Below are positions 1 through 5,016 of a stretch of DNA of 5,016 bases, one piece after another (the first letter of the stretch is position 1; every line of letters begins with the position of its first letter). Origin of the DNA: Oscillospiraceae bacterium (GTDB lineage: Bacteria; Bacillota; Clostridia; Oscillospirales; Ruminococcaceae); the NCBI GenBank assembly GCA_017396055.1, contig JAFQND010000312.1:1-5016 (forward strand). The letters run 5' to 3'. The notes under the pieces are model-generated. The model made no database searches and had not been told where the DNA came from. It saw nothing but the letters and a program-made list of their open reading frames with translations. The position numbers and the translations under genes are program-made.

Positions 1-964
1 CATCGGCGAAGGCCCCGTCATCGTGGCCACCGGACCTCTGACCTCCGACGCTCTGGCAGAGGAGATCGTCCGTATCACCGGCAGTGGCAGGCTCAGCTTT
101 TTTGATGCCGCCGCACCCATCATCACCGCCGAGAGCATCGACCGCTCCATCGTTTTTGCCGCTTCCCGCTATGGACACGGCGACGACGACTATCTCAACT
201 GCCCCATGAATCAGGAAGAGTACGATCGCTTTTACGAGGCACTCGTCTCGGCCGAAGGAGTCGAGCTTCATCAGTTCGAGAAGGACAGCTTCAGAGTTTA
301 TGAGGGCTGTATGCCCGTGGAGATCATGGCAAAACGCGGTCCCGAAACCATCCGTTTCGGTCCTCTGAAACCGGTCGGTCTCCGCGACCCCCGTACCGGT
401 CATCGTCCCTGGGCGGTGGTACAGCTGCGCAAGGAAAACGAACAGGGAACCCTTTATAACCTGGTCGGCTTCCAGACCAACCTCAAATGGGGCGAACAGA
501 AGCGGGTCTTCTCGCTGATCCCCGGCCTTCAGAATGCCGAGTTCGTCCGATATGGCGTCATGCACCGCAATACCTTCCTCGATTCACCCAGACTGCTGAC
601 CCGTACCTTTAATCTCAAAGCGAACGAAAATATCTATTTCGCAGGTCAGATGACCGGCGTTGAGGGATATGTGGAATCGGCGGCCAGCGGACTTCTGTGC
701 GGTCATCATCTGGCGAGAAAGCTTCTGGGTCTTCCGATGCTGGAGCTGCCCTGTGACACCATGCTGGGCGCACTGACCGATCATGTGGTCAACGAAGTGG
801 GCGATTTTCAGCCCATGGGTGCCAATATGGGCATCCTTCCCAAGCTGACCGAGCGGTACAAAGAGAAAAAGGACCGTTATCTGGCTCTGGCCGAAAAGGG
901 TATCGCTTCGTTCAAAGCAGAGCTTGCCCGCGTTGGTCTTCCCGAAGGAGGTCCGAAGGCATGA
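1..964 (+). CDS. trmFO: TrmFO, folate/FAD-dependent tRNA (uracil-54-C5)-methyltransferase, 5'-truncated by window edge
   Basis: Known role: this cytoplasmic flavoenzyme makes 5-methyluridine at position 54 of the tRNA T-loop, using methylenetetrahydrofolate as carbon donor and FADH2 as reductant. Seen: the reading frame is already open at base 2, reading [15 protein letters not shown], so roughly the first 115-120 residues, including the FAD-binding GxGxxG, lie upstream of the window. The GTG at 23 is internal and is not the start. Family signatures follow in order: [25 protein letters not shown] (Cys codon at 308-310, in the conserved cysteine region expected to hold the nucleophile), [32 protein letters not shown] (551-598), the [16 protein letters not shown] block near 644-691, and a C-terminal [12 protein letters not shown]. 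About 320 residues are visible, against about 440 for the whole family. The stop overlaps the next ATG as ATGA (961-964), implying translational coupling. Identification is secure. Confidence 0.96.
945..952 (+). promoter_or_regulatory. Strong ribosome binding site for the lipoprotein gene
   Basis: AAGGAGGT lies inside the trmFO coding end, 8 bases before the ATG at 961. It is a near-perfect match to the anti-Shine-Dalgarno sequence and fixes the start of the downstream gene, which overlaps the trmFO stop. Confidence 0.8.
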
Positions 965-1419
965 AAAAGTTTCTCGCAGGTCTGCTGACAGCAGTTTTCT
1001 GCTGCGGTCTTCTCTCCGGCTGCGGACCCAGCGATTTTCAGCTGGCCATGTATGATGCCGAAGATAAGGTGCTGATGGCGGCAGACAGCTATTTTTACAA
1101 AAAGCATATCAAACATGTGACTGACACCCGGTATGAAGCCGATTTTACCGATTTCACCGGTGCAGATACCATCTGGGATTCCAATAACGATCCGGCAGAC
1201 GGAGAATTTACCATCGAGGGAAGTGTGCAGGTCACCGAGGGCGGTTTCAGACTTGTCCTTGTCTCTTCCTCCGGTGCGGAGGTTTTCTTTGACGCCGCAG
1301 ACGGCAAGGAAGATTTTTCCATTACAAAAGATTTATCGTCGGGACGCTGGCGGGTCAAAATGCTGGCGAAAGAGGCTTCGGGCAGTATCGATATTCTGCT
1401 GCCCGGTACCCCTTCCTGA
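961..1419 (+). CDS. Small secreted lipoprotein of unknown function
   Basis: I do not recognise a family for this 152-residue protein. Seen: a lipoprotein signal peptide with a basic start (MKKF), a hydrophobic core at about residues 5-17, and the lipobox LSGC at 18-21. Lipidation at Cys21 and anchoring to the outer face of the cell membrane are therefore expected. The remaining 131 residues are acidic and rich in Asp, Ser, Thr and Gly. A short stretch at about 26-60 looks helical or mixed. Residues about 85-145 alternate in a beta-strand-like way ([46 protein letters not shown]), suggesting a small beta-sandwich. No catalytic motif is visible. The start is set by a strong AAGGAGGT at 945-952, and the gene overlaps trmFO by 4 bases. 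The stop is followed by a 33-base gap before plsX. Lipoprotein status is confident; function is unknown. Confidence 0.85.
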
Positions 1420-1452: not shown

Positions 1453-2475
1453 ATGAAAATTATTGTAGACGGATTCGGCGGAGATAACGCGCCCCTGAGC
1501 GTACTGGAGGGCTGTGCCCTTGCGGTAGAGGAGTACGGCGCTGAATTGATCGTCACCGGTGATGAGCAGAAGCTCAGAGCTGTGGCAGCCGAAAACAATA
1601 TCTCTCTGAAAAATATCGAGATCCACCACGCTCCCGATGTTATCGGCATGCATGATGATCCTGTCAGCCTTCTGAAGGCCAAGTCCCAGTCGTCCATGGC
1701 GGTGGCTTTCCAGCTGCTGAAGGAAGGTGTAGGCGATGCTTTTGTTTCTGCAGGCTCCACCGGTGCTATTGTTGTGGGTGCAAACTTCATCATCAAGCGC
1801 ATCAAGGGCATCAAGCGCGCCGGTCTGGCTTCGCTCATTCCCGCCCTGCACGGTTATTATCTGCTGATGGACTGCGGTGCGAATATCGACTGTAAGCCCG
1901 AGACCCTGACCCACTTTGGTCTGATGGGCAGCGTATACATGGAAAAGGTCATGGGTATCAAAAAGCCCAAAGTCGGTCTTGCAAACATCGGCACCGAGGA
2001 CACCAAGGGCGGCGAGCTGCAGCTGGGTGCATACGCCATGCTGAAAGAAGCTCCCATCAACTTTATCGGCAACGTCGAAGCCCGTGAGATCCCCACCGGC
2101 GATACCGATGTGGTAGTTGCTGACGGTTTCACCGGCAATATCATCCTGAAGCTGACCGAAGGTCTGGCTTCCTCTTTCGGCAAAAAACTCAAAGGCATGT
2201 TCCTTGCCAATCTCGGTACCAAGATCGGTGCACTGCTTCTGAAAAAACAGGTTCAGGAGTTCAAGGCTTCGATGGACTATACCGAGCACGGCGGCGCACC
2301 TCTGCTGGGTTCTGCCAAGCCGGTCATCAAGGCCCACGGCAGCTCCAATGCCAAGGCATTCAAAAACGCCATCCGTCAGGCAAGAACTTTTGCTGAGTCC
2401 AATGTTACCGGTGAGATCGAATCCGCTCTGGCTGTCCTGAAAGCAAAAGCTGCCGAAAAGGTCGAGGAAGTATGA
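1453..2475 (+). CDS. plsX: PlsX, phosphate acyltransferase (acyl-ACP:phosphate)
   Basis: Known role: PlsX converts acyl-ACP and phosphate to acyl-phosphate, the donor that PlsY uses to acylate glycerol-3-phosphate at the start of phospholipid synthesis. It is a peripheral membrane enzyme. Seen: 340 residues, full length for the family, with the characteristic motifs in order: VDGFGGDNAP (5-14), SAGSTGA (99-105), DCGAN (140-144), GLANIGTEDTKG (175-186), VADGFTGN (222-229), GGAPLLG (280-286) and HGSSNAKA (295-302). The most common variant of the first motif is VDAMGGDNAP; here it reads GFGG, a modest difference. In many Bacillota plsX is followed by fabD/fabG/acpP or by acpP and rnc. Here it runs by a 4-base ATGA overlap straight into a Ham1-HD fusion gene, and a probable rnc appears only three genes later. 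The gene looks intact. Confidence 0.97.
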   Translation: MKIIVDGFGGDNAPLSVLEGCALAVEEYGAELIVTGDEQKLRAVAAENNISLKNIEIHHAPDVIGMHDDPVSLLKAKSQSSMAVAFQLLKEGVGDAFVSAGSTGAIVVGANFIIKRIKGIKRAGLASLIPALHGYYLLMDCGANIDCKPETLTHFGLMGSVYMEKVMGIKKPKVGLANIGTEDTKGGELQLGAYAMLKEAPINFIGNVEAREIPTGDTDVVVADGFTGNIILKLTEGLASSFGKKLKGMFLANLGTKIGALLLKKQVQEFKASMDYTEHGGAPLLGSAKPVIKAHGSSNAKAFKNAIRQARTFAESNVTGEIESALAVLKAKAAEKVEEV

Positions 2476-3650
2476 TCGACCTTTTGATCGGCACTGGCAA
2501 CCCCGGAAAGATTCTGGACATGATCCCCCTGGCAAAAGAGCGGGGAATGGTCTGTAAAAGCGGCGAAGAATATGCCATCGATCCCGATGAAAACGGCGGC
2601 TCTCCTGCCGAAAATGCCGCCATCAAAGCCAGAGCCTATGCTGAAGTTTCCGGGCTGCCGACCATTTCGTTTGACTCGGGACTTTACTTTGCCGAACTGC
2701 CCATGGACGATCCTCGTCAGCCGGGGCTGCATGTCCGCAGGGTGAACGGCAGGCGCCTTTCCGATGAAGAAACGACCGCTCACTATATAGATCTTGTCAG
2801 AGAGATGGGGCATCCCGTTCTCTGTCAGTGGGTCACCGGCTTTGCCGCGGCGATGCCTGACGGCAGAGTGATCTCCGGCGATGACCGGGAAGGTCAGCCT
2901 AAGTCCTGGCAGTTTTATCTTGTGGATGAGCCGAAGGGCCCTTCAAGTCCCGGAAAACCCCTTCACTGCATTTCAATCGAAGCGGACAGCGGGGAATATT
3001 TCGGCCTGAGAGAGAAAGACGGCAGCTCTGCCGTACGCAGAAAAGCTGTCCGGATGAAGGCACTGGACGCGCTGGAGAATCTGATCTTCGGCGCTGTGGA
3101 TCTGAAGGCTCCTGAACGCACCTGGCCAGAAGAGACCGCTCCCCGGATCGCTCTGGCAAAAGAGATCGCGGTGAAGACCGCGGAAAAACGGCCGGATAAC
3201 AGCCGTCTGGATAAGCTGCACGACATTGTTGACGCAGTGCTCGGTGAGATGAATCCTGTCAGGGAAGCCTATCAGCATCTTTACGGTGTGGCGTCTCTGG
3301 CGGCACTGCTGGCAAAGCGCAGAGGTGCTGATCCGGAGCTTGCTGCCATGGCGGGAATGCTCCATGACTATTACGGTTATGTTTCGGGCGATACCGAAGA
3401 TCATGCCCACCGCTGCCCTCCTCTGGCAAAATCCGTGCTGGAGCTGTGCGGCGTCACCGAAGAGGAACAGTACCGCATCTGCAGAGCGATCTATGAACAC
3501 AGCGACAAGGCAGGGAGCCATCCGCTTCTGTCGGAGATCCTGATCGATGCCGATGTGCTGCAGCACGGCCTCTATGACCCGACCGTTCCGGTCAAAATCA
3601 AGGAAAAAGCCCGCTTCGATGCCATCTCGGCCGAATTGGGCCTGGAATAA
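2472..3650 (+). CDS. Ham1/RdgB-like NTP pyrophosphatase domain fused to an HD-domain phosphohydrolase
   Basis: This 392-residue protein has two domains. Residues 1-206 resemble the Ham1/RdgB family, which hydrolyses non-canonical purine NTPs to NMP plus pyrophosphate. Seen: the GTGNPGK loop (7-13; T8, N10, K13), ENG with E40, SPAENAAIKA (44-53; K52), FDSGL (67-71; D68 aligns with the catalytic second Asp of ADDSGL) and LPMDDPRQPGLHVRRVNG (76-93). The classical GFGYDPIF is missing; SWQFYLVDE (145-153) stands near its place. There is no SHR, although SSAVRRKA (185-192) is nearby. After a linker (about 207-245), residues 250-392 form an HD domain: H269, H298-D299 (MLHDYYGY), H311/H313, H343 (YEHSDK) and D359/D361 (LIDADVL). 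The pattern recalls the YqeK-like or generic HD families. The gene starts in an ATGA overlap with plsX, with GAGGA just upstream. Inferred: a bifunctional nucleotide house-cleaning enzyme. The substrates of both domains are unknown. Confidence 0.85.
   Translation: MIDLLIGTGNPGKILDMIPLAKERGMVCKSGEEYAIDPDENGGSPAENAAIKARAYAEVSGLPTISFDSGLYFAELPMDDPRQPGLHVRRVNGRRLSDEETTAHYIDLVREMGHPVLCQWVTGFAAAMPDGRVISGDDREGQPKSWQFYLVDEPKGPSSPGKPLHCISIEADSGEYFGLREKDGSSAVRRKAVRMKALDALENLIFGAVDLKAPERTWPEETAPRIALAKEIAVKTAEKRPDNSRLDKLHDIVDAVLGEMNPVREAYQHLYGVASLAALLAKRRGADPELAAMAGMLHDYYGYVSGDTEDHAHRCPPLAKSVLELCGVTEEEQYRICRAIYEHSDKAGSHPLLSEILIDADVLQHGLYDPTVPVKIKEKARFDAISAELGLE
2697..2749 (+). repeat. Conserved 53-bp coding block, copy 1 (in the fusion gene)
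   Basis: This copy encodes the LPMDDPRQPGLHVRRVNG segment. It matches the copy at 4480-4532 at 44 of 53 bases by my hand alignment. It is a remnant of gene duplication kept by protein-level constraint, not a mobile repeat. Confidence 0.75.
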
Positions 3651-3654
3651 GGAG
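3649..3654 (+). promoter_or_regulatory. Ribosome binding site of the second Ham1-like gene
   Basis: AAGGAG overlaps the TAA stop of the fusion gene (3648-3650) and lies 7 bases before the ATG at 3662. This supports that start over the in-frame ATG at 3668. Confidence 0.7.
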
Positions 3655-3661
3655 CTAATCC

Positions 3662-4273
3662 ATGGAAATGATCCTTGCATCGCACAATCCCGGAAAACTC
3701 GCTCACCTGAAACCCTTTTTCGAGGGAACCGGCTGTGAACTGAGAAACTGTGATATAGAGATCGATGTGGAAGAAAACGGCGCTGACCCTGCGGCCAATG
3801 CACTGATCAAAGCAGAGTACTGTGCAGAAAAGACGGGGCTTCCCTCCGTTGCTGAGGATTCGGGTCTGTATTTTGTTGAGCTGCCCATGGATGATCCCCG
3901 TCAGCCCGGTCTCTTTGTCCGCAGGGTGGGCGGAAAAGAGCTGACCTATGAAGAGATGGTCGGTCACTACCGTTCGATCGCCCGGGAATTCGGCGGCAGA
4001 GTGCTGGCTGCCTGGTACGACGGTTATGCCATTTCTTTCGGAAAGGGAAAGAACACCTGCTTTCTCATGCCGGAGGAAGACCGGATGGTCTGGGCTTTCT
4101 GGCTTTTGGACGAACAGAAGGAACCCATCAGCCCCGGCATGCCCATCGACTGCATCTCCGAGTGGCTGCCCAGGACACCTGAACGGGAAAAACTGGAAAA
4201 TGATTACCGCGAAAAGCTGACCCGCTATTTTTACGAAGCCATCAGACAGTATAAGGAGCAGAAATGGAACTGA
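3662..4273 (+). CDS. Divergent Ham1/RdgB-like nucleoside-triphosphate pyrophosphatase (second tandem paralogue)
   Basis: A single-domain protein of 203 residues, close to the roughly 200 usual for Ham1/RdgB. Seen: ASHNPGK (6-12; S7, N9, K12), ENG with E38, DPAANALIKA (42-51; K50), AEDSGL (64-69; D66 in the catalytic Asp position, the preceding Asp replaced by Glu), the subfamily block LPMDDPRQPGLFVRRVGG (74-91), LAAWYDGYAISFGKGK (115-130), and WAFWLLDEQ (144-152) where canonical members have GFGYDPIF. The C-terminal SHR is absent; the region reads WLPRTPEREK instead. The Glu of the usual ENA motif is Ala here (A45), unlike in both neighbours. Family knowledge implies NTP to NMP plus pyrophosphate, but specificity cannot be assumed because the base-recognition signatures are missing. 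It lies 11 bases after the fusion gene and overlaps the next paralogue by 10 bases. Ham1-like fold: fairly sure. Active enzyme: likely. Substrate: unknown. Confidence 0.83.
   Translation: MEMILASHNPGKLAHLKPFFEGTGCELRNCDIEIDVEENGADPAANALIKAEYCAEKTGLPSVAEDSGLYFVELPMDDPRQPGLFVRRVGGKELTYEEMVGHYRSIAREFGGRVLAAWYDGYAISFGKGKNTCFLMPEEDRMVWAFWLLDEQKEPISPGMPIDCISEWLPRTPEREKLENDYREKLTRYFYEAIRQYKEQKWN
3881..3933 (+). repeat. Conserved 53-bp coding block, copy 2
   Basis: This copy encodes LPMDDPRQPGLFVRRVGG in the second paralogue. It is identical to the copy at 4480-4532 at 47 of 53 bases by hand alignment. Most differences are synonymous; the exception is Phe versus Tyr. Confidence 0.8.
4253..4258 (+). 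promoter_or_regulatory. Ribosome binding site of the third Ham1-like gene
   Basis: AAGGAG lies inside the 3' end of the preceding gene, 5 bases before the ATG at 4264. It supports a start that overlaps the upstream stop by 10 bases. Confidence 0.7.
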
Positions 4274-4866
4274 TCATAGGTACGAACAATCCCGCAAAGC
4301 TGCGTTCTTTCGGCTCTTTGCTGGATGAGGAACATACCCTGAAACTTGCAGGGATCCCCTGCGAAGTGGAGGAAAGCGGCGCCGACCCCGCCGAAAACGC
4401 CGCCATCAAGGCGGAATATTACGCCGAAAAGCTGGGGAAACCCGTCATTTCCGGCGACGCAGGTCTGTATTTTCTCGACCTGCCCATGGACGACCCCCGT
4501 CAGCCCGGACTTTACGTCCGCAGGGTGGGCGGCAGGGAACTGACCGACGAAGAGATGATCACCCATTACCGTGCCCTTGCCCGCGAGCTGGGCGGAAAGG
4601 CACTTGCTGCCTGGTATGACGGCTATGCCATCTCCTTCGGAAAAGGAAAGACGGAAAAAATTCTCTTGTCCCGCGAAGCTACCCTTGCCTGGGCGTTTTA
4701 TCTGGTGGACGAGCAGGTCGCACCGGTCCATCCCGGTTTCCCCATGGACAGTATCTCGGTGACGCTGCCCCGGACACCCGAAAAGGAAGCCATCCGGATG
4801 AAGGGCGTAGAAGAGGTCAAACAGTTCCTGCGTGATATGATCAAAAAATACGGGGCGGCCCTCTGA
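4264..4866 (+). CDS. Divergent Ham1/RdgB-like nucleoside-triphosphate pyrophosphatase (third tandem paralogue)
   Basis: A 200-residue single-domain protein, clearly the closest relative of the gene before it. Seen: GTNNPAK (6-12; T7, N9, K12), ESG with E37, DPAENAAIKA (41-50; E44, K49), SGDAGL (63-68; D65 in the catalytic position, but the usual Ser after it is Ala and the Asp before it is Gly), LPMDDPRQPGLYVRRVGG (73-90), LAAWYDGYAISFGKGK (114-129, identical in the second paralogue), WAFYLVDEQ (143-151) in place of GFGYDPIF, and TLPRTPEKEA (168-177) where the family normally continues towards SHR. Most core residues of a pyrophosphatase are kept, and the base-recognition motifs are replaced in the same way as in the other two copies. 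The gene overlaps the second paralogue by 10 bases and is followed by a 90-base leader with two hairpins before a probable rnc. Substrate unknown. Confidence 0.84.
   Translation: MELIIGTNNPAKLRSFGSLLDEEHTLKLAGIPCEVEESGADPAENAAIKAEYYAEKLGKPVISGDAGLYFLDLPMDDPRQPGLYVRRVGGRELTDEEMITHYRALARELGGKALAAWYDGYAISFGKGKTEKILLSREATLAWAFYLVDEQVAPVHPGFPMDSISVTLPRTPEKEAIRMKGVEEVKQFLRDMIKKYGAAL
4480..4532 (+). repeat. Conserved 53-bp coding block, copy 3
   Basis: This copy encodes LPMDDPRQPGLYVRRVGG in the third paralogue and is the closest match to the other two. It occupies the position of the PGxYSAR segment of canonical Ham1 proteins, with a short MDDPRQ-type insertion before PG. Confidence 0.8.
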
Positions 4867-4873
4867 CCGTCCA

Positions 4874-4898
4874 CTATCAAAAGCGCTGCTTTTGATGG
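4874..4898 (+). other. Hairpin 1 in the leader before the probable rnc
   Basis: ATCAAAAGC (4876-4884) and GCTTTTGAT (4888-4896) form a perfect 9-bp inverted repeat around a GCT loop. It can be extended by a T-G wobble and a C-G pair to 4874 and 4898. No T-tract follows, so it does not look like an intrinsic terminator on the + strand. Its last two bases overlap the first arm of hairpin 2, so the two folds compete slightly at that border. Confidence 0.7.
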
Positions 4899-4926
4899 CT
4901 ATGGAAAAGCGATTTTCCCCAGCCAT
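4895..4926 (+). other. Hairpin 2 in the leader, with GNRA tetraloop
   Basis: The outer stem is ATGGCT (4895-4900) with AGCCAT (4921-4926). The inner stem is GGAAAA (4903-4908) with TTTTCC (4913-4918), capped by GCGA (4909-4912), a GNRA tetraloop. A 2x2 internal loop (AT opposite CC) separates the stems. The interrupted structure, stable loop and absence of a following T-run suggest an RNA structural or processing element rather than a terminator. The next gene starts 30 bases later. Confidence 0.7.
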
Positions 4927-4956
4927 GAGAAGCGCCGCAGAAAGCGAGTGACAAAA

Positions 4957-5016
4957 ATGACAGACATGTTGGAAAATGCACTGCTGGAAGAGCTTCAGCA
5001 AAAGATCGGCTATACC
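4957..5016 (+). CDS. rnc: Probable ribonuclease III, 5' end only
   Basis: Only 20 codons are present: MTDMLENALLEELQQKIGYT, still open at the window edge. RNase III proteins typically begin with a short acidic helix leading into LExxIGYTF, just before the ALTHSS segment, and this fragment fits that opening. Genomic position also fits: rnc commonly follows plsX/acpP in Bacillota. RNase III would be the cytoplasmic double-stranded-RNA endonuclease for rRNA and mRNA processing. The ATG at 4957 has only a weak GCGAG upstream (4944-4948). An in-frame GTG at 4948 and ATG at 4966 are alternative starts. The call rests on a short fragment plus context, and no catalytic residues are visible. Confidence 0.6.
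   Translation, partial: MTDMLENALLEELQQKIGYT

Follow-up and report, generated by a model that had tools for sequence, protein, structure and literature searches.

Three tandem genes of an Oscillospiraceae bacterium, named here hamA, hamB and hamC, were analyzed in a stretch of 5,016 nucleotides (assembly GCA_017396055.1, contig JAFQND010000312.1). This stretch is called the window, and it is the whole contig, ending at position 5016, of a genome of 1.9 Mb which is 67.7% complete. By their sequences, HamA, HamB and HamC are members of a Ham1-like family which is distinct from canonical RdgB. It is on balance probable that the trio is a house-cleaning cassette of this Ham1-like, non-RdgB kind, with HamA fused to an HD domain, which would cut unusual nucleoside triphosphates to nucleoside monophosphate (NMP) and pyrophosphate. 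The residues for cutting of phosphate are kept while the base-recognition motifs are missing, and hence these proteins likely clear other unusual nucleotides than RdgB does. The three genes and the HD domain are located as follows.

2472..3650, plus strand: hamA, 392 amino acids (aa), Ham1-like domain at about residues 1-205 and HD domain at about residues 215-392; pocket motif GKPLHCIS
3114..3650, plus strand: HD domain of hamA, with H269, H298-D299, H311, H343 and D359/D361
3662..4273, plus strand: hamB, 203 aa, Ham1-like; pocket motif GMPIDCIS
4264..4866, plus strand: hamC, 200 aa, Ham1-like; pocket motif GFPMDSIS

An initial annotation of this DNA had described three tandem, overlapping or near-touching Ham1-like genes at 2472-4866, which is borne out by the open reading frames (ORFs), by the Pfam matches and by the strings LPMDDPRQPGLxVRRVxG, E[NS]G and [ST]xNPxK which all three proteins share. 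PF01725 was matched with 47.1 bits by HamA, 52.3 bits by HamB and 48.2 bits by HamC, all above the gathering score of 22.5 (E 3.3e-12 to 8.7e-14); these matches are confined to the N-terminal part of the profile and reach position 94-126 of 186. The structure prediction gave the fold of Ham1 and inosine triphosphate pyrophosphatase (ITPase) with high confidence (for HamA, the mean predicted local distance difference test score is 92.0). A chance or weak similarity to Ham1 was ruled out by the Pfam scores along with the predicted fold.

The cut-offs of the NCBIfam models for RdgB (145-301 bits) were reached by none of the three proteins, whose best score is 45.7 bits. They gave 28.4-41.5 bits against the cut-off of 145.35 for TIGR00042, and 40.6-45.7 bits against 234 for PRK14822. 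As a control, the RdgB of a genus mate (locus L017) passed TIGR00042 with 207.6 bits and scored 220.7 bits with PRK14822, itself below 234. The split between the family and canonical RdgB is fully supported in both of the trees that were built (100 in the quick tree, 100/100 in the careful tree), so that the separate clade sought by the initial annotation was recovered. The quick tree has 158 rows, with rows below 120 bits left out; of the canonical loci L004-L033 and L074-L097 (54 in all) it takes 23, along with 20 selected proteins; it omits nine duplicate loci (L046, L047, L104, L106, L136, L157, L167, L172 and L176), and gave a long-branch warning for L095 and P0049. The careful tree was made from 60 hand-picked rows of these 158, without L095 and P0049. 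In the parts of the open-licence papers that were covered, neither the family nor a Ham1-HD fusion is described, which is weak evidence of absence.

Kept catalytic half and changed base pocket

Residue columns were read from an alignment in which 70 family rows were merged with 31 canonical rows, and motifs were counted in 135 family rows and 23 canonical rows. The columns of HamC N9, K12, E37, K49 and D65 are invariant in 70/70 family rows and in 31/31 canonical rows. The equivalent Lys residues sit in the triphosphate site of RdgB and the Asp corresponds to the residue which has been proposed as general base in Maf (extract of PMC3899018); mutants of N10 and K13 of RdgB are described as well (extract of PMC8893687).

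The other half of the protein is different. The base-pocket motif [FM]G[YF]D is present in all 23 canonical rows and in 0 of the 135 family rows. Where canonical proteins have GFGYDPxF in their C-terminal half, the family has motifs like G[aromatic]P[LM]D[SC][LI]S, of which PG[WFY]PLDSLS, standing in place of FGYDP/SHR, is an example. The string G[WFY]P[LMI] occurs in 116/135 family rows, and the second place is K or M in most rows of HamA and HamB. The SHR base-recognition motif near the C-terminus is absent from HamA, HamB and HamC; across the 70 family rows the K...SHR columns, including the canonically invariant Lys, are not conserved, and an SHR string was found in 3/135 rows, never at the place of the motif. 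There is also an insert of 4 residues, part of DDPRQPG, between the catalytic D-S-G-L and P-G.

These observations bear on the explanation that the genes encode ordinary extra RdgB enzymes, hydrolysing (deoxy)inosine triphosphate ((d)ITP) and xanthosine triphosphate (XTP), in which the C-terminal half was changed by drift. The shared fold and catalytic columns fit with it, the Asp of FGYDP is still D in 60/70 family rows, and four genomes (G158, G227, G285 and G390) carry the family but have no PF01725 match above 80 bits. We consider this explanation unlikely. The SHR columns and the Lys before them are not conserved in the family, [FM]G[YF]D is absent from it, and in human ITPase the change of SHR to SAA abolishes ITP specificity or activity (PMC6640186, in the accessible part, citing Gall 2013). 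The low NCBIfam scores also speak against it. A search of 391 genomes of the class with a family profile gave 28 carriers with full-length matches of at least 146 bits, and 23 of these 28 also retain a canonical-like RdgB (in G143 the match is in two pieces). The carriers without it are the incomplete genome of the window and the same four genomes, which are 97-99% complete.

It is improbable, somewhere near a tenth of the weight in our estimate, that the proteins serve to sense nucleotides for defence or in a stress system, like the dITP-sensing KomB of the Kongming anti-phage system, with the HD domain and the NUDIX and GNAT domains of relatives as effectors. A sensor of this kind fits poorly with catalytic residues which are invariant in 70/70 rows and with genes which are packed in a row with housekeeping genes. 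No family of PADLOC-DB 2.0.0 (2023) matches HamA, HamB or HamC, the presence of a KomB model in this library being unconfirmed. Among the seven window proteins scanned there is no KomA deaminase, no KomC NADase and no other effector depleting nicotinamide adenine dinucleotide (NAD), and no defence gene was seen in the window, where the contig ends 150 base pairs (bp) past hamC. The neighbours in the genus genomes G005 and G010 were inspected mostly by eye.

Fusion partners and the three paralogues

Residues 267-364 of HamA match PF01966 (HD) with 40.3 bits, a domain which was missing from the initial annotation. Fusions of Ham1 and HD are present in the window, in G005 and in the 393-aa homologues P0095-P0098, and L035:6630-7811 has the same architecture. 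G010 encodes the HD protein on its own, in a gene which overlaps a Ham gene by 8 bp, and the fusion in the window and in G005 is thus the joined form of this gene pair. The complete metal motif H..HD..H..H..D is present in 21/21 complete HD rows aligned, HamA included; the alignment takes 14 of the 42 proteins of one homologue set, and the truncated P0024 is excluded from the HD counts. This extended motif is described for YqeK (extract of PMC8177086). The best sequence matches of the HamA domain in PDB are YqeK chains (E 4e-5), and by fold 2pq7, YpgQ and YqeK are nearest (E 0.009-0.03, which is modest). HamA differs from YqeK in that it is fused to a Ham1 domain and in that its HD domain stays below the equivalog cut-off (29.5 bits against 70.15 for TIGR00488).

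Other partners are joined to the family as well. L105 has at its C-terminus, and L151 and L158 have at their N-terminus, a NUDIX domain whose nearest family is YtkD (TIGR02705, below cut-off); P0041, P0042 and P0044 are N-terminal NUDIX fusions too, by precomputed Pfam matches and alignment. The C-terminal NUDIX domain of L069 was considered as an Ap4A (diadenosine tetraphosphate) type; this was dropped, MutT families being nearest in NCBIfam (below their cut-offs), and L070 has the same Pfam pair. A GNAT acetyltransferase is fused at the C-terminus in L107, L129, L143 and L147, and a kinase-like AAA_33 domain at the N-terminus in L073. L150, L155 and L165 have long extensions at the N-terminus, which were rejected as fusions; Pfam sees Ham1 alone in these proteins and the extensions are probably over-long starts.

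The closeness of the HD domain to the YqeK Ap4A hydrolases, with the full extended motif, could be taken to mean that Ham1 and HD together destroy signals like the dinucleoside tetraphosphates (Np4N) or alarmones. This is very improbable, as the score stays well under the YqeK cut-off, most of the relatives are without an HD domain, and the NUDIX partner of L069 is nearest to MutT and not to the Ap4A type. We also know of no Ham1-fold enzyme which acts on dinucleotides.

Identities between the three paralogues are low, at only 54% (hamB and hamC) and 43%. The local expansion proposed by the initial annotation agrees with the careful tree, in which HamA, HamB and HamC fall on a single branch together with the other copies of the cassette (98/92). 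The first split on it separates HamA (9 rows, 100/99) from HamB, HamC, the second copy of G010 and P0014 (14 rows, 100/98). The second copy of G010 branches next, the remaining 12 rows have 83/84, and the HamB clade has 4 rows with 100/100. Each group has a pocket motif of its own, which is GKPL[HS][CT]IS in 9/9 rows of HamA, GMP[IL]DCIS in the 4/4 rows of the HamB group that have the region (P0018 is without it) and GFPMDSIS in 8/8 rows of HamC. These motif differences are the main hint of different substrates and suggest the specialisation which had been proposed.

Close relatives of each gene are present on other contigs, among proteins from metagenomes, namely P0095-P0098 for HamA, P0009-P0011 for HamB and P0001-P0006 for HamC. 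For P0002, P0010 and P0024 the longest contig is 4498 bp each, which suggests that the trio recurs. P0003 and P0098 (32996 bp) and P0006 and P0095 (38648 bp) likewise agree in this length, which hints at shared contigs but is no proof of them. In codon comparisons, hamA against its G005 counterpart gave 0.21 nonsynonymous (dN) and 1.22 synonymous (dS) substitutions per site, and hamB against hamC gave dN 0.39 and dS 1.42; dS was saturated in two other pairs. These values fit with purifying selection. Over about 48 N-terminal residues P0007 (HamC-like) and P0011 (HamB-like) are identical, and P0007 looks like a mosaic made by gene conversion between tandem copies or by an assembly chimera. A recent redundant tandem duplication with no distinct function would suit the 0-3 copies at this locus within one genus and the exchange of sequence which P0007 and P0011 may reflect, yet it has hardly any likelihood given the low identities, the close relatives on other contigs and the pocket motifs kept within each group.

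Proposed function of the cassette

Under the house-cleaning explanation, which we favour, a nucleoside triphosphate would enter the conserved cleft, a water activated by D65 (HamC numbering) would attack the alpha phosphate, and NMP and pyrophosphate would leave. We infer this pyrophosphatase chemistry from the conserved residues and from the chemistry of the superfamily. The base would be read by the changed pocket, and each paralogue would hydrolyse its own (deoxy)nucleotide, not mainly ITP or XTP, because most of the carriers keep RdgB for these. The HD domain of HamA may act on a related nucleotide or on the product, in the way of YqeK fused to NadD, for which proofreading and a possible nucleotide-sanitising activity are described (extract of PMC9426524). 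The mycoplasma NadD-YqeK of the same extract is alike in that an HD diphosphatase is joined, for clean-up, to a second enzyme of nucleotide metabolism; it differs in that the partner in HamA is a Ham1-like domain, for which a comparable role is putative.

A more specific form of this proposal is tentative, and we give it rather less than even weight. It holds that the family is a new branch of Ham1/Maf with a rebuilt base pocket (PG[WFY]PLDS[LI]S for FGYDP...SHR), that it was multiplied in this lineage into a cassette of three enzymes, with a different damaged or modified nucleotide other than ITP as the target of each paralogue, and that HamA couples two sequential hydrolyses within a single polypeptide. 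Among the closest known systems are the Maf (YhdE/YceF) nucleotide pyrophosphatases, whose proposed general base is the equivalent Asp. RdgB/ITPase (TIGR00042) is the same in fold, in most of the triphosphate- and metal-binding residues and in the general-base Asp; the family differs from it by the lack of FGYDP and of SHR in place, by the 4-residue insert before PG, by a shifted Arg, by its separate clade and by scores under every NCBIfam cut-off.

Several observations weigh against the proposed function. The Arg of the R87 column, invariant in canonical RdgB, is R in 40/70 and T in 21/70 family rows, and a near-invariant family Arg (68/70) stands one column before it, so that the triphosphate site is not identical to that of RdgB; HamA, HamB and HamC all have RR here. 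At the column of RdgB D68 the family shows no conservation. The spread is patchy (28/391 genomes of the class and 5/398 of a phylum sample), unlike that of a core sanitising enzyme. No family member with a known substrate was found, and the GNAT fusions point to nucleotide clean-up less plainly than the NUDIX or HD fusions. The proposal of differing substrates for HamA, HamB and HamC comes only from the motif differences, and the careful tree does not resolve the HamC rows as a single clade (support is 86 in the quick tree).

Distribution and genomic setting

In the class scan, the next match below the carriers is a C-terminal piece of 89 bits in G140, itself a carrier, and the remaining listed matches have at most 83 bits. 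The five genomes of the phylum sample, the window's included, passed E 1e-35. In both scans often only 7 first-look candidates were scored per genome, and the copy numbers are thus lower bounds; the family members of G062 and G140 escape PF01725 at E <= 0.001, so that counts made with this profile are minimum values as well. In a scan of named genomes, at least 498 stretches encode a relative of HamC; 80 loci were kept, all with a family-profile match of at least 207 bits. These relatives are mostly from Clostridia with some from Erysipelotrichaceae, and include Faecalibacterium sp. An122 and Beduini massiliensis.

A reading as phage cargo was rejected; the scan of viral contigs gave 52 pattern matches and zero relatives. 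A phage collection gave 9 matching records, of which one, an unverified 'Bacteriophage sp.' scaffold, matched over 86% of HamC. Among plasmids 5 records matched, one over 97%, which is a Fusobacteria plasmid. Its family member (L198:4995-5609) lies beside a ParA-like ATPase and replication genes, and the record also has cas3.

Some other Ham1 kinds were also found. L103:1459-2064 in carrier G125 is a further kind, whose closest matches are ITPases of the archaeal type (1b78, E 6e-24), and it also matches KomB. L089, L091, L092, L094 and L095 (families f71 and f79) are RdgB-like with FGFDE (FGFDQ in L095) replacing FGYDP; in four of the five, SAR, SSR, GVR or GPR replaces SHR, and L089 keeps SHR. 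Five genomes which are 98-100% complete (G065, G097, G103, G181 and G243) gave zero PF01725 matches at E <= 0.001.

The neighbours of the trio in the window are the following.

2..964, plus strand: trmFO with its 5′ end cut by the contig, upstream; TIGR00137 448 bits
961..1419, plus strand: small lipoprotein-like gene between trmFO and plsX, with lipobox-like LSGC by eye
1453..2475, plus strand: plsX, upstream of hamA; TIGR00182 334 bits
4957..5016, plus strand: start of probable rnc (RNase III), cut by the contig end, downstream of hamC

The stop of plsX overlaps the start of hamA (ATGA, 2472-2475), hamA and hamB are separated by 11 bp, and hamB and hamC overlap by 10 bp. An AAGGAG site like a Shine-Dalgarno sequence lies just 5′ of both hamB (3649-3654) and hamC. 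The 20 visible residues of the ORF from 4957 gave no family match on their own; the ORF aligns with the rnc genes which occupy this position in G005 and G010, of which that of G010 passes TIGR02191 (272 bits). The gene at 961..1419 matched no family above cut-off, and tblastn (E <= 1e-4, 14 plsX loci) matched it only to L184, L185 and L186, which are the plsX loci of the three cassette-carrying genomes of the genus. The stretch 4867-4956, between hamC and rnc, has a strong predicted hairpin (minimum free energy -34.2 kcal/mol, z -5.1 against 200 shuffles), with a counterpart of 86% identity at the same place in G005 and none found in G010. It is possibly a leader structure of RNase III; Rfam gave nothing at gathering scores in the window, this region included.

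The locus was compared within a genus set of 14 genomes, the window's included, with plsX detected in 13. The order of plsX, Ham genes and rnc recurs, with one Ham gene in G005 (HD-fused), two in G010 along with the separate HD gene, and three in the window, one genome each. In 10 of the 13 genomes no Ham gene lies in the gap between plsX and rnc, and the family profile found nothing in six frames of L187-L197. The gap of G009 has a different gene of 223 aa with a 4Fe-4S double-cluster domain (Fer4_16; L192:353-1024, minus strand), and thus the gap seems to be open to insertions. The link with lipid and RNA processing, which the initial annotation had read from this operon, looks incidental because 10/13 genomes have plsX and rnc without a Ham gene between; for the same reason the neighbourhood was set aside as a weak functional clue. 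That interpretation is thus supported in part: the expansion, the clade, the fold, the RdgB of relatives and the recurrence stood, and neither the meaning of a lipid/RNA operon nor the substrates follow from the data.

Seven genomes of the genus (G001, G002, G004, G008, G009, G012 and G013) have a family member elsewhere, between a gene for an HI0933-like flavoprotein and trmO. These flanks were found by tblastn at 7/7 loci (L036-L042), with family assignments made on L039, and for trmO on L041 as well. Neighbours common across species were looked for, and among those listed only lineage-specific clusters were found, of which this pair is the clearest. None of the genus genomes shows both the cassette and the trmO-linked form; G003, G006, G007 and G011, several of which are incomplete, show neither. 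The two forms are not sister groups in the careful tree, and their union as one clade was rejected by the approximately unbiased test (p 1.7e-53), the group being defined after the first tree. It therefore seems that the family was acquired on more than one occasion within the genus or was lost from it differentially.

The canonical copy about which the initial annotation had asked is present as RdgB in 12 of the 13 genus mates, the exception being G008 (69% complete). In 8/8 mates with both genes on one contig, rdgB lies 6.4-8.8 kb from plsX. RdgB was not found in the window genome, with its 67.7% completeness and a contig ending at 5016; a replacement of RdgB by the trio was rejected in view of the incomplete genome, the contig end and this distance in the mates.

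In one set of homologues the only unfused protein with a source name, P0003, is annotated simply as a non-canonical purine NTP pyrophosphatase. Should the altered pocket reflect a new substrate, annotations of this sort would be misleading for many proteins (at least 498 stretches). The repeated fusions with NUDIX, HD, GNAT and kinase-like domains provide testable clues to the nucleotide damage that occurs in these bacteria.

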